In this document: piece by piece, positions 257-5,504 of the stretch
Numbering within the stretch: position 1 is the stretch's first letter
Layout of the letters: every line of letters begins with the position of its first letter
From: a bacterium
Lineage (GTDB): Bacteria > SM23-31 > JAUVVT01
NCBI GenBank assembly: GCA_030616165.1
Contig: JAUWXV010000234.1
Location: 1 to 5,672, forward strand
Direction of reading: 5' to 3'
Length of the DNA: 5,672 nucleotides
Translations under genes and position numbers: made by a program
Notes under the pieces: generated by a model
Database searches by the model: none
Seen by the model: only the letters and a program-made list of their open reading frames with translations
Told to the model about the DNA's origin: nothing

Positions 257-1633
257 ATGGGTAAAAAATCGGGGAGAGTACTTCTTGTGGATGATGATGA
301 AGATGTTCTTCATGCAGCAAGACTGTTCCTTAAACAACACGTAGAAACGATACATATTGAAAAAAGCCCGCAGACAATTCCTGCATTACTTAAAAACGAA
401 TCCTATGATGTTATCCTGTTGGATATGAATTTTACCAGGGATGTAAGCAGCGGCTCTGAAGGTTTTTATTGGCTGAACAAAATTCTTGAAATTGACCATT
501 CGGCTGTTGTAATTCTGATTACAGCATACGGTGATGTGCAAATGGCAGTTCGGGCAATTAAAGAAGGTGCGACAGATTTTATCCTCAAGCCGTGGCAGAA
601 CGAGAAATTGCTGGCAACTCTTTCGGCAGCTCTGAATCTTAGGTGGTCTCTTGTCGAGGTTGATAGCCTGCGTTCACGGCAAAAACAGCTGAGTGCAGAC
701 CTTGATAAACCTTTTCATAATTTTATTGGCATCTCTTCTGCAATGCAGCAGATTTTTGCAACCATTCAAAAAGTTTCTAAAACCGAAGCCAATGTATTAA
801 TTCTGGGTGAGAATGGTACCGGAAAGGAATTAGTAGCCCGGGAATTACACCGCCAGTCACCTCGTACTAATGAAGTGTTTATCAGTGTTGACATAGGTTC
901 AATAAGTGAAACACTCTTTGAGAGTGAACTCTTTGGTCATGTTAAAGGAGCTTTTACTGATGCCCGAGAAAACCGGGCCGGCCGTTTTGAAATAGCATCT
1001 GGAGGAACGCTTTTTCTTGATGAAATTGGTAATCTTCCCCTGCACTTACAGGCAAAACTCTTAACAGTCCTGGAAAAACGCCGTGTCATTCGCCTTGGAA
1101 CGAATAAACCAATCCCTATTGATGTCCGCCTGGTTTGTGCAACCAATATGTCCATTCAGGAAATGGTAACCGAAAAAAAGTTTCGTCAGGATCTCCTTTA
1201 CAGAATTAACACTGTTGAAATCAATCTTCCTCCTCTGCGTGAGAGGCTCGAAGATATTCCATTACTTGTTGAACATTTTCTGGAGATTTACTCTAAAAAA
1301 TACAAAAAATCAATCATGCGGGCAAGTCCAACAGCTTTGAAAAAATTACAAAAATACAATTGGCCTGGAAATGTCAGAGAGTTGCTGCATACTATAGAGC
1401 GAGTTGTTATAATGAGTGACTCTGAGATATTGCAGCCATCTGACTTTTTCTTTTCTGCACCGGAAACAAAAGAAGAATACATAACATTTGAAAATTATAA
1501 TTTAGAAGAGGCCGAAAAAGTATTAATTCGGAAAGCAATTAGTAAACATGGGGGAAATATCAGTCAGGCGGCAAAAGAATTAGGGCTGACACGAACTTCC
1601 CTTTATCGGAGGTTGGAAAAATATGGTTTATAA
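257..1633 (+). CDS. Sigma-54-dependent response regulator (NtrC family)
   Basis: Predicted cytoplasmic transcription activator that, when phosphorylated, remodels sigma-54 RNA polymerase using ATP. Three domains are visible. The receiver domain (about 7-125) has the acidic pocket D12-D14, phosphoacceptor D56, switch T89 and K111. The AAA+ domain (about 156-385) has Walker A GENGTGKE at 184-191, the sigma-54 contact loop at 231-236, Walker B DEIG at 255-258, the arginine-finger region around R310/R316 and WPGNVREL at 369-376. A Fis-type helix-turn-helix occupies about 417-458. The length of 458 residues is typical for the family. The contact loop reads GAFTDA instead of the textbook GAFTGA. 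The ATG is preceded by GAGGTG with 7 bases between. The last 11 bases overlap the kinase gene, so that kinase is its likely partner. Family assignment is firm; target genes are unknown. Confidence 0.96.
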   Translation: MGKKSGRVLLVDDDEDVLHAARLFLKQHVETIHIEKSPQTIPALLKNESYDVILLDMNFTRDVSSGSEGFYWLNKILEIDHSAVVILITAYGDVQMAVRAIKEGATDFILKPWQNEKLLATLSAALNLRWSLVEVDSLRSRQKQLSADLDKPFHNFIGISSAMQQIFATIQKVSKTEANVLILGENGTGKELVARELHRQSPRTNEVFISVDIGSISETLFESELFGHVKGAFTDARENRAGRFEIASGGTLFLDEIGNLPLHLQAKLLTVLEKRRVIRLGTNKPIPIDVRLVCATNMSIQEMVTEKKFRQDLLYRINTVEINLPPLRERLEDIPLLVEHFLEIYSKKYKKSIMRASPTALKKLQKYNWPGNVRELLHTIERVVIMSDSEILQPSDFFFSAPETKEEYITFENYNLEEAEKVLIRKAISKHGGNISQAAKELGLTRTSLYRRLEKYGL

Positions 1634-2984
1634 AAGTTTTCGGCTCCAATGTGTCCTAAGAGTCCTTATAATATGTGTTTTGACTTTTCTATTATTCTAT
1701 CTATTCCATAACACCACTCAATATTTGATAATATTTTTTGTTTGCATTTTCATTCTTTTTCAAATCTTTTCGCTTATTCGGTATGTGGAAAAAACTAACA
1801 AAGTCCTGACCCGTTTTTTACAATCTATCAGGTATTCGGATTTTTCACAGACTTTTATCAAAAATGGTCGAGGAGACTCATTCGATGAGTTAAGCACCGA
1901 ATATAATGAAGTCATAAACAAGTTTCGACAGACGCGGGCTGAAACGGAAGAGCACTTCCGTTTTTTACAAACGGTTGTTCAACACGTAGGTATTGCATTA
2001 CTGGCTTATAAACAAAATGGTGATGTGGTACTGATTAATACTCCTGCAAAACGTTTATTTAAGATTGCACGACTGAGAAATATCAAGTCACTTGAATCTT
2101 TCAACAATTCATTAGTTGAGATTATGTTTCGGTTGAAATCGGGTGAAAAGGAATTAGTCAAAGTTGAAGATAATAATGATTTGTTGCAACTGATGGTATA
2201 TGCTGCAGAATTTAAATTACGTGAACAAAAAATTACCCTGGTCTCAATACAGGATATAAAAAGCGAATTAGAAGAAAAGGAGATGGAAGCATGGCAGAAT
2301 CTCATACGTGTACTTACTCATGAGATAATGAACTCAATTACACCAATTGCCTCACTTGCTTCTACGATTAATGACCTCCTAAAAAATTTTTATATTTCTG
2401 AAAATCAGTATATTAAAGGGAATAATAGGATAGAACAACTTCCTGATATTCATGATGCAGTACGAACAATTCAGAGACGGAGTCAGGGATTATTACACTT
2501 TGTTGATAATTACAGAGATCTTACCAATATTCCAAAACCCAACTTCCAAATATTTTTAATTGCGGAACTTTTTGACCGGGTAAATCAACTTATGCATACC
2601 GAAATAGAAAAAAAGGCAATTAGTTATCAGGTAACTGTAGAACCGAAAACTCTGGAATTGACAGCAGATCCGGAATTGATTGAACAAGTCCTTATAAACC
2701 TCATATTAAATTCGATCCAGGCAGTTGAAGGCAAAAAAGACGCAAGAATAGATTTAGAAGCAGGTTTGGATGGAAGAGGGAATGTTATAATCAGGGTTAC
2801 TGATAATGGCACTGGAATCATTAGAGATGCTCTGGATAAAATTTTTATCCCCTTCTTTACCACAAAAAAAAATGGGTCGGGCATCGGCTTGAGCTTATCC
2901 AGGCAAATAATGAGATTGCACGGCGGTTCAATCAAGGCATCTTCAAAACCCAACAAACAAACAGTTTTTACTCTAAAATTTTAA
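1623..2984 (+). CDS. Membrane-anchored NtrY-like sensor histidine kinase
   Basis: Predicted inner-membrane histidine kinase that phosphorylates the response regulator encoded just upstream. Two hydrophobic helices (about 10-29 and 34-54) are joined by only a few residues, so almost no periplasmic domain exists. A HAMP-like or coiled linker (about 55-112) and a PAS-like domain (about 113-215) follow. The HisKA region has phosphoacceptor H233 in LTHEIMNSITP. The ATPase domain has an N box with N359 and N363, DNGTGI at 394-399, FIPFF at 408-412 and the glycine-rich GSGIGLS at 418-424. All residues needed for kinase activity appear present. The ATG overlaps the regulator gene by 11 bases in another frame, with GGAGG at 1608-1612, 10 bases upstream, which supports this start and translational coupling. 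The signal sensed is unknown; input probably comes through the membrane helices or the PAS domain. Confidence 0.94.
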   Translation: MVYKSFRLQCVLRVLIICVLTFLLFYLFHNTTQYLIIFFVCIFILFQIFSLIRYVEKTNKVLTRFLQSIRYSDFSQTFIKNGRGDSFDELSTEYNEVINKFRQTRAETEEHFRFLQTVVQHVGIALLAYKQNGDVVLINTPAKRLFKIARLRNIKSLESFNNSLVEIMFRLKSGEKELVKVEDNNDLLQLMVYAAEFKLREQKITLVSIQDIKSELEEKEMEAWQNLIRVLTHEIMNSITPIASLASTINDLLKNFYISENQYIKGNNRIEQLPDIHDAVRTIQRRSQGLLHFVDNYRDLTNIPKPNFQIFLIAELFDRVNQLMHTEIEKKAISYQVTVEPKTLELTADPELIEQVLINLILNSIQAVEGKKDARIDLEAGLDGRGNVIIRVTDNGTGIIRDALDKIFIPFFTTKKNGSGIGLSLSRQIMRLHGGSIKASSKPNKQTVFTLKF

Positions 2985-3261: not shown

Positions 3262-4803
3262 TCATTTTAAGTTAATCTTAAATACAAAAGCATGTTCACA
3301 GGGTTTCTCTTCAGGAAACTTAATCGTAAGACCCCTCTCATCTCTGGACCATTGAATTTCACTTCTTGAACCTAACATGGAGATAGAAGAGATACCTTCG
3401 GGGCTGATTTTAGTTTTGGCATTTAAACTCTTTATGGTAAGTTCTTTTTCTTTAGGCCAGTCGAGTGCAATTGCATAGAGGACGTTACCTTTCCTGGTAA
3501 ATCTTATATCCTTTGCCGTATAAGGAACTCTGTCGCGCTCTTCGCTGAAAGCACCACCTTTTCCCTTAGTAGGACCTTCCCCGTAAGTGACCCAGTGCCG
3601 TGTATCGTAAATTGCCTCACCGTTGACATCCAGCCATTCGCCGATTCCCAGCAGACGTTCTCTTGCCGGTTCGGGAATTATTCCATCAGACCTGGGACCA
3701 ACATTGAGCAGCATATTGCCGTTCTTGCTGACGATATCAACCAGAACATCAACCAGTTCATTAACTGATTTATAATCTGGGTTCTCGATGTAGCACCACG
3801 ATTTTCTGTCAACTGATGTATCAGTTAGCCAGGCATCAGTACTTAATGAATCAAGCCTTCCACGCTCAAGGTCAAGGATACCTGCCCCTGCCGGAAGATC
3901 CTGGTGCTTATAAGTTACACCCACTTCTCTGCCCCATTCCTCGGCTCTGTTATAATAGTAAGCGAGAAAACTCTTTTTATACTCCTGGAAATCATCAAGG
4001 GCTGAACGGAAATACTCCTTTCTCCCTATCCCACCATCAAACCAGAGTAAATCCGGTTCGTACTTGTCGATGACCTCGACTATTTTTGCTTCCCAGTTTT
4101 CCATGTACTCTTTGGTCGGCGGGGCTCCCTTTTCATGTGGCTGGGAGTATAAATCCCCATACCTTGGATCTTCGGTATCATATCGTTTATCAGGCGTATA
4201 AGAATTTTCATAATACCACCATTTACGTGCATGGTGAAACGATGTAACAAACTTCATACCCCGTGATTTAATGGCTTTAGCCAACTCCCCGACAATATCT
4301 CTCTTGGGTCCCATATCAGCGGCGTTCCATTCAGTGATGTCACTGTCCCACATGGCAAAACCATCGTGGTGTTCCGCAACAGGACCGGCAAACTGCGCGC
4401 CGGCTCTCTTGAACAAATCAGCCCAGCGGTTAGCATCGAAGTTTTCCGCTTTGAACATCGGGATGAAATCTTTATAGCCGAATTCAGATGGATCTCCAAA
4501 ATGCTCTTTGTGGTATTGATAAAAATTGCCCCTCCTTGGTTGCTCTTCATTTACATACATCCAGCGTGGATACCACTCGTTACCGAATGCGGGCACCGAA
4601 TAAACTCCCCAGTGAAGGTAAATTCCAAATTTCGCGTCCTTGAACCATTCGGGAGTAGAGTGTTGCGTGAGAGATTCCCAGGTGGCTTCATACCTCTTAC
4701 CACTCACTTGATTTTCGCACGACCCAACCACGAATGACATTAAAAAAACGGACGCCAAAATTATAGCTGATAAAAATTTGGCAAAATTTCCTGCAATTTT
4801 CAT
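3262..4803 (-). CDS. Alpha-L-fucosidase, glycoside hydrolase family 29, lipoprotein
   Basis: Predicted exported retaining glycosidase that releases terminal alpha-L-fucose from glycans (EC 3.2.1.51-type). Residues 1-28 form a signal peptide with a lipobox-like V26-G27-S28 before C29, so the mature protein is probably a lipoprotein facing the periplasm or cell surface. GH29 signatures are clear: FGIYLHWG (H64), NEWYPRW (E76), EHHDGF (H145, H146) and LLWFDGG with the likely nucleophile D256. NGNMLLNVGP comes near the end of the barrel, at about residue 365. The last 100 or so residues look like the usual C-terminal beta-sandwich. The acid/base glutamate varies within GH29 and I cannot assign it. 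The length of 513 residues is normal and no damage is seen. AAGGAG lies 9 bases before the ATG. No other carbohydrate gene is adjacent, so it looks like a stand-alone scavenging enzyme. Substrate linkage is unknown. Confidence 0.95.
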   Translation of the reverse strand: MKIAGNFAKFLSAIILASVFLMSFVVGSCENQVSGKRYEATWESLTQHSTPEWFKDAKFGIYLHWGVYSVPAFGNEWYPRWMYVNEEQPRRGNFYQYHKEHFGDPSEFGYKDFIPMFKAENFDANRWADLFKRAGAQFAGPVAEHHDGFAMWDSDITEWNAADMGPKRDIVGELAKAIKSRGMKFVTSFHHARKWWYYENSYTPDKRYDTEDPRYGDLYSQPHEKGAPPTKEYMENWEAKIVEVIDKYEPDLLWFDGGIGRKEYFRSALDDFQEYKKSFLAYYYNRAEEWGREVGVTYKHQDLPAGAGILDLERGRLDSLSTDAWLTDTSVDRKSWCYIENPDYKSVNELVDVLVDIVSKNGNMLLNVGPRSDGIIPEPARERLLGIGEWLDVNGEAIYDTRHWVTYGEGPTKGKGGAFSEERDRVPYTAKDIRFTRKGNVLYAIALDWPKEKELTIKSLNAKTKISPEGISSISMLGSRSEIQWSRDERGLTIKFPEEKPCEHAFVFKINLK

Positions 4804-4883
4804 AACTTGTTTCTCCTTGTATCTTTACATAATATATTTTCATTTCAATTATATGTTTTAATGAATTGTTTTTTTACCAACTG

Positions 4884-4935
4884 TAGGGGCGAACCCCTGT
4901 GCTTGCACTGTGTGCCTGTCCTTTGGATTCGCCCT
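4884..4935 (+). repeat. Hairpin repeat family, copy 1
   Basis: GTAGGGGCGAA starts the element and ATTCGCCCT ends it. The arms GGGCGAA (4887-4893) and TTCGCCC (4928-4934) are exact complements around a loop of about 34 bases. Just inside the arms, CCC and GG can extend the pairing past a mismatch. The tail CTCTCT after the right arm is shared with copy 2. It lies in the 363-base gap between the fucosidase and SelW-like genes, in which I find no supported gene. Confidence 0.65.
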
Positions 4936-5009
4936 CTCTATTTTCTTCCTTGCCCTTCGGGTCTGCGGTTTATTATTATTCTTTTAATCTATTTTCATTC
5001 CAACCAAAC

Positions 5010-5040
5010 GTAGGGGCGAACCTGTGTGTTCGCCCTCTCT
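5010..5040 (+). repeat. Hairpin repeat family, copy 2
   Basis: The arms GGGCGAAC (5014-5021) and GTTCGCCC (5028-5035) form a perfect 8-bp stem with the loop CTGTGT. It has the same GTAGGGG start as copies 1 and 3 and the same TTCGCCCTCTCT ending as copy 1. This is the most compact copy of the three. Confidence 0.7.
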
Positions 5041-5082
5041 GTTTCCAATCCTTGTTTTGATTGCCTTTCGTTTAAATTAAAT

Positions 5083-5121
5083 GTAGGGGCAGAACACAGT
5101 GTGCAGGCATTGTTCTGCCCT
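5083..5121 (+). repeat. Hairpin repeat family, copy 3 (diverged arms)
   Basis: It starts with the same GTAGGGGC, but both arms differ from copies 1 and 2. GGGCAGAACA (5087-5096) pairs perfectly with TGTTCTGCCC (5111-5120) around a 14-base loop. The change from CGAA to CAGAA is matched on the other arm, so pairing is kept. Read on the - strand it lies about 46 bases after the SelW-like stop codon and is followed by only weakly T-rich DNA, so it might help end that transcript, but this is not shown. Confidence 0.65.
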
Positions 5122-5166: not shown

Positions 5167-5388
5167 TTAAATTGACTTCAACTTTTGAATCATCTCATTA
5201 TTATCAGGGAAACGGCCAGTTGATCTTTTTGAGAATATCAATTTCCCATCCGCAACCACTTCAAAAACACCACCGCTGGATTTTATAAGTTTTGGAGATA
5301 TTCCTATTTCGTTTTTAATCGCAGCCGCCAAACTGGAGGCTTGTGGGTAATAGTTTCATTCTCCACAGTATTCAATTGATATGTTCAT
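5167..5388 (-). CDS. SelW-like selenoprotein (SelT/SelW/SelH, Rdx family), Sec at residue 11
   Basis: Small cytosolic thioredoxin-fold protein of 73 residues, read through an in-frame TGA (5356-5358) taken as selenocysteine. It begins MNISIEYCGE, and the TGA follows at codon 11, giving C8-G9-E10-U11 exactly where SelW relatives carry CxxC or CxxU. After the TGA the family pattern continues: GGVFEV at 39-44, DGKLIFSKR at 47-55 and GRFPD at 58-62, ending at a TAA. This continuity across the TGA argues against a chance ORF. AAAGGAG with a 7-base gap fixes the ATG, and a SECIS-like hairpin follows the TGA. The family is thought to act in thiol redox reactions, but bacterial substrates are poorly known. 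It stands alone, codirectional with the fucosidase but 363 bases away. The alternative is a pseudogene with a mutated second Cys; the hairpin makes this less likely. Sec synthesis genes would have to be elsewhere. Confidence 0.85.
5323..5341 (-). promoter_or_regulatory. Putative bacterial SECIS element
   Basis: Inside the SelW-like coding region, on the - strand, AGCC pairs with GGCT. After a single U-C mismatch, CC pairs with GG. The apical loop is AGUUU, or GUU if the closing A-U pair forms. There are 21 bases between the TGA and this loop. Known bacterial SECIS elements are short stem-loops just after the UGA, with G (often followed by U) at the start of a small apical loop that SelB recognises; this matches in position, size and loop bases. 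The stem is short, so SelB binding remains inferred. Confidence 0.75.
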
Positions 5389-5395
5389 AGATTAA

Positions 5396-5402
5396 CTCCT
5401 TT
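5396..5402 (-). promoter_or_regulatory. Ribosome binding site of the SelW-like gene
   Basis: AAAGGAG on the - strand ends 7 bases before the ATG at 5388-5386. It decides the start of this short gene, whose TGA at codon 11 makes ORF-length evidence useless. Confidence 0.8.
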
Positions 5403-5476: not shown

Positions 5477-5504
5477 AATATATATTTTTTAGACATATTG
5501 TCAA
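5477..5504 (-). promoter_or_regulatory. Probable sigma-70-type promoter of the SelW-like gene
   Basis: On the - strand a perfect TTGACA (5499-5504) is followed after 16 bases by TATATT (5477-5482), one base off TATAAT. Transcription would start near 5470 and leave a leader of about 80 bases before the ATG. Two near-identical 9-base units lie head to tail at 5452-5469 (AATCCTGCC, AATCGTGCC on the + strand), right at the predicted start, and could be an operator. AT-rich DNA makes chance -10 boxes common, so confidence is moderate. Confidence 0.5.

Follow-up and report, generated by a model that had tools for sequence, protein, structure and literature searches.

A probable SelW-like selenoprotein gene with an in-frame UGA at codon 11 in an uncultured bacterial lineage

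The window, a stretch of 5,672 nucleotides, carries a short minus-strand reading frame in which TGA occurs once, at codon 11 (Table 1). Read with selenocysteine (Sec, U) at that codon, the product is MNISIEYCGEUNYYPQASSLAAAIKNEIGISPKLIKSSGGVFEVVADGKLIFSKRSTGRFPDNNEMIQKLKSI, followed by TAA. The initial annotation had proposed a hidden SelW-like selenoprotein gene here, and translation reproduced exactly its coordinates, the Cys-Gly-Glu-TGA motif at codon 11 and the 62 further codons that lead to the stop. It had also held that without recoding the locus looks empty. This was true only in part. The frame has no ATG past the TGA earlier than codon 66, but a 54-amino-acid ORF starts from the TTG of codon 20 (5331-5167, minus strand), so a gene caller could report a headless fragment instead of nothing. 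What that ORF offers is a truncated product that lacks strand beta-1 and the CxxU motif.

Table 1. Positions of the features discussed in the text
Feature	Position	Strand	Remarks
NtrC-type response regulator gene overlapping histidine kinase gene	257-2984	+	
Alpha-L-fucosidase gene	3262-4803	-	signal-like N terminus
selW-like (Rdx family) gene, probable selenoprotein	5167..5388	-	73 aa, ATG to TAA, predicted Sec (TGA) at codon 11
Bacterial SECIS-like hairpin AGCC-U-CCA GUU UGG-C-GGCU	5323..5341	-	apex 22 nt after UGA
TGA codon, predicted to encode Sec	5356..5358	-	C8-x-x-U11 motif; TGA in 33/34 relatives, TGT (Cys) in one
Shine-Dalgarno-like AAGGAG	5396..5401	-	seen in sequence; conserved in closest relative
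Promoter-like TTGACA-16-TATATT	5477..5504	-	consensus match only, 11/12

Upstream of the gene the sequence reads aaggag-ttaatct-ATG. This places AGGAG 7 nt before the start codon, the good spacing that had been claimed for it, and the corresponding region of the closest relative is nearly identical (caaggagtcaatct-ATG). Might translation begin instead at the TTG, yielding a 54-residue protein with neither Cys nor Sec? The ORF for such a protein exists, but codons 1 to 19 are conserved as protein in the relatives (ISIEYC-x-x-U-NY), it is the ATG that has the good and conserved Shine-Dalgarno sequence, and in the predicted fold the short form would be missing part of helix 1 as well as beta-1. 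We therefore regard a start at the TTG as very improbable. The promoter-like pair that had also been noted upstream is present. It can be called suggestive at most, because the AT-rich stretch holds nine promoter-like matches against 3.0 expected (about threefold), which makes any one of them weak evidence; the selW-like gene may be transcribed from it. Between the fucosidase and selW genes (4876-5120), we observed diverged intergenic repeats around GTAGGGGCGAAC...GTTCGCCC, one copy of which scores as a terminator-like hairpin on the plus strand. We found no conserved gene order: in the closest relative, the ORFs that flank selW are not those of the window.

We compared the product, with C in place of U, with curated protein family models. 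It matched Pfam Rdx with an E value of 1.5e-18 (67.2 bits, cut-off 22.6) over profile positions 1-73 of 74, which excludes a chance match. It also matched TIGR02174 CXXU_selWTH (60 bits, cut-off 34.2) and NF041051 (88.8 bits, cut-off 88). The assignment to the SelW/Rdx family made from the letters alone is thus borne out by scores above all three curated cut-offs. Relatives of the window protein scored 85.6 and 87.1 bits with NF041051, just under its cut-off, and we therefore consider the window protein a borderline member of that narrow model. We found no other Rdx gene in the same genome.

A sequence search of solved structures retrieved SelW-related proteins and mouse SelW. In the alignment, the CxxC of Atu0228 falls on C8-x-x-U11, with its second Cys opposite Sec11. 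The motif, C8-G-E-U11, lies near the N terminus, and C8 and position 11 are invariant across 32 sequences when U is read as C. AlphaFold (five models, 32 aligned relatives) predicted a confident thioredoxin-like fold, with a mean pLDDT of 96.2 and a pTM of 0.84. When this model was compared with the PDB by Foldseek, the top matches were bacterial SelW-related proteins (TM 0.86-0.94), followed by MIEN1 and mouse SelW. The thioredoxin-like fold is shared with mouse SelW (2npb) and with the bacterial Cys-form SelW-related proteins (2fa8, 2obk, 2ojl, 2p0g and 3dex); the bacterial structures are 24-32% identical to the product in sequence, and mouse SelW is the poorer match to the predicted model (TM 0.64). 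Family, fold and motif together suggest that the protein may act as a thiol/selenol oxidoreductase, in which a Cys8-Sec11 selenenylsulfide would be exchanged with a partner.

We next consider conservation. The comparison covered 34 distinct relatives, some within the same phylum and others in MAGs or genomes that carry various other labels (Deltaproteobacteria/Desulfobulbaceae, Gemmatimonadetes, Planctomycetota, Acidobacteria, Actinomycetota, Verrucomicrobiales and others). The homologous codon is TGA in 33 of them, in a domain otherwise without stops. The remaining one, a Nitrospiraceae MAG, has TGT (Cys) at this codon. Both a conserved TGA and a Cys orthologue, which the initial annotation had suggested looking for, were thus found, and the random stops and frameshifts that it had named as signs of a decayed gene were not seen in the relatives. 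Downstream of the TGA, comparison with the nearest relative gave a dN of 0.11 and a dS of 0.71, and most differences fell on third codon positions (21, versus 8 on first and 5 on second positions). We conclude that the frame past the TGA is translated and under selection.

Perhaps the locus is a Cys-form Rdx gene in decay, its Cys codon mutated to TGA? The single Cys-encoding relative is what such a history would draw on. Against it stand the TGA that 33 of 34 relatives from different phyla share, purifying selection past this codon (dN well below dS), the covarying hairpin and the complete Sec system described below. We rejected a decayed Cys gene on the strength of the conserved TGA and the purifying selection, and hold it to be extremely improbable.

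Within the phylum of the source, five of the six genomes examined have a TGA-form selW; in the sixth, which is 83% complete, no TGA-form selW was found. The bin of the nearest relative (70% complete) yielded no selB over the cut-off and no detectable tRNA-Sec, gaps that are most easily explained by its incompleteness. A genome of the same class as the source (G003) has SelB over the cut-off; no Rdx gene and no tRNA-Sec were found in it, possibly a gap, given its completeness of 83%. We also considered that the selW-like gene might come from a phage or another mobile element and rejected this, since phage records gave no near match and plasmids no close one, the best being 42% identical.

A second line of evidence lies in the RNA just after the UGA. 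The region following the TGA aligns without gaps in 33 sequences and contains a seven-pair hairpin (alignment columns 22-28 and 32-38), which in the window reads GCC-U-CCA GUU UGG-C-GGC. Across the 33 sequences, 86.6% of the hairpin cells are paired; shuffles gave 78.9 +/- 1.4%, and sliding the partner strand gave 28-54%. Four of the seven pairs have two-sided changes, the covariation score is 0.330 versus 0.199 +/- 0.020, and RNAalifold, unaided, recovered six of the seven pairs. Since the hairpin lies within coding sequence, base conservation is partly conservation of the protein, and it is the two-sided changes that carry information. Folded by itself, the window's hairpin, whose stem contains one U-C mismatch, has a free energy of -8.9 kcal/mol; this is not clearly better than its own shuffles (z score -0.96), so the support for a SECIS element rests on the comparison.

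Published criteria for bacterial SECIS elements are an apical loop of 3-9 nt with G in the first two positions, an upper stem of 4-16 bp, a distance of 16-37 nt from the UGA and a minimum free energy of -7.5 or lower (PMC13188914). The window's hairpin falls inside all of these limits: its loop is GUU, 22 nt separate that loop from the UGA, and its stem forms seven pairs plus one mismatch at the energy given above. An Rfam search of the window returned no match. Searching the whole genome with a covariance model built on the hairpin and its surroundings recovered only this locus and one weak match (E 0.2); the model is therefore too specific to list other selenoproteins.

Is the machinery for Sec present? 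The source genome (3.74 Mb in 343 contigs, 90% complete) encodes a tRNA-Sec with a UCA anticodon, and profile searches detected selB, selA and selD at 353, 488 and 362 bits. The order selA-selB-selD-selC occurs on a single strand of one contig (C100). The selA gene is split, running off the end of C100, with its first ~108 model positions at the end of another contig (C84). The selD gene (283-1338, minus strand of C100) carries an in-frame TGA of its own, in KCAG-U-AGK. A genome without selB, selC and selD would have spoken against a selenoprotein, as had been pointed out from the outset; all four sel genes are in this genome, mostly on C100.

These genes also bear on the idea that UGA is reassigned throughout the genome (code 4 or 25), the residue at codon 11 then being Trp or Gly. 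Nothing beyond the in-frame UGA itself speaks for it. In 261 kb of the genome, TGA ends 40 of 133 long frames, the median distance from a TGA to the next in-frame stop is 5.5 codons, like those for TAA and TAG, and tRNA-Sec is the only tRNA with a UCA anticodon. Moreover, the family has Cys or Sec at this position, aligned with the CxxC of Atu0228. UGA is otherwise an ordinary stop, which points to recoding in particular genes and not to an altered code. We rejected an altered genetic code on stop usage and tRNAs, and judge its chance to be vanishingly small.

We conclude, from sequence evidence, that the locus is almost certainly a SelW-like Rdx-family selenoprotein gene whose UGA at codon 11 is read as Sec. 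What the sequences show is the gene itself, its conserved UGA, the hairpin and a Sec machinery in the genome; Sec would be expected at codon 11 from what is known of the family. The product would be small, with a thioredoxin fold and, near its N terminus, a C-x-x-U redox motif. SelB and tRNA-Sec would decode the codon-11 UGA as selenocysteine, directed by the in-gene stem-loop with its apical GUU, which starts 14 nt after the UGA.

SelW-like selenoproteins were reported from Sargasso Sea metagenomes (PMC1088965). A survey of sequenced bacteria found few Cys homologues in organisms that use Sec and on that ground took Sec for the original state of SelW-like proteins (PMC1794560), and a table in a 2026 review lists SelW-like as PF10262 with CxxU, predicted with high confidence (PMC13188914). 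The locus has in common with these proteins the Rdx family, the N-terminal CxxU, the predicted UGA-encoded Sec, a SECIS-like element that follows shortly within the gene and few Cys homologues among Sec users. Only its host sets it apart, a lineage from a small uncultured phylum (six genomes examined). In Epsilonproteobacteria, selW genes were completely missed in genome annotation (PMC4607533). The window protein resembles the SelW of that group in standing at the cut-off of its model (NF041051, SelTWH_Campy) and in the same missed-annotation situation, but it comes from another phylum. The observation and interpretation of the initial annotation stood, whereas the novelty that it implied did not: the family is already listed (PMC1794560, PMC13188914), and so are missed selW genes (PMC4607533). 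Knowledge of bacterial SelW-like selenoproteins dates from 2005-2006. The locus adds nothing new on the SelW family or its mechanism. What is gained is a Sec-using, SelW-bearing lineage for a known family, and an example of a small selenoprotein gene, of a kind that often escapes gene callers, which can be recognized from the bare letters and then confirmed through its genomic context, where standard annotation would drop the gene or give a truncated product.

Other candidates were seen in the same genome. A formate-dehydrogenase-like alpha subunit gene (contig C53, about 15.6-16.3 kb, minus strand) has an in-frame TGA in EHQARI-U-HSSTVASLAA, followed by the hairpin CGCCAGUUUGGCGG, whose apex is almost the same as that of the selW hairpin. 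The two genes have near-identical hairpins 19-22 nt after the UGA. One SelB in this lineage could conceivably recognize the same apical motif (CCAGUUUGG) in selenoprotein genes that are not related to each other, a proposal that we put forward tentatively and think somewhat unlikely. If true, it would make a lineage-specific search for further hidden selenoproteins feasible.

A second hidden candidate lies on C84 (622-2655, plus strand, TGA at 2023) and would encode 678 amino acids. Its product has an N-terminal hydrophobic stretch, LVIVD repeats, an Ig-like region, an AhpC/TSA redoxin domain with W-U-PVC (UxxC) and a C-terminal Por_Secre_tail/FlgD-like sorting domain. An exported, sorting-tagged selenoprotein looks unusual, and a literature search for this combination of features found nothing relevant. 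A hairpin follows the TGA, and the gene is divergent from the selA fragment on the same contig.
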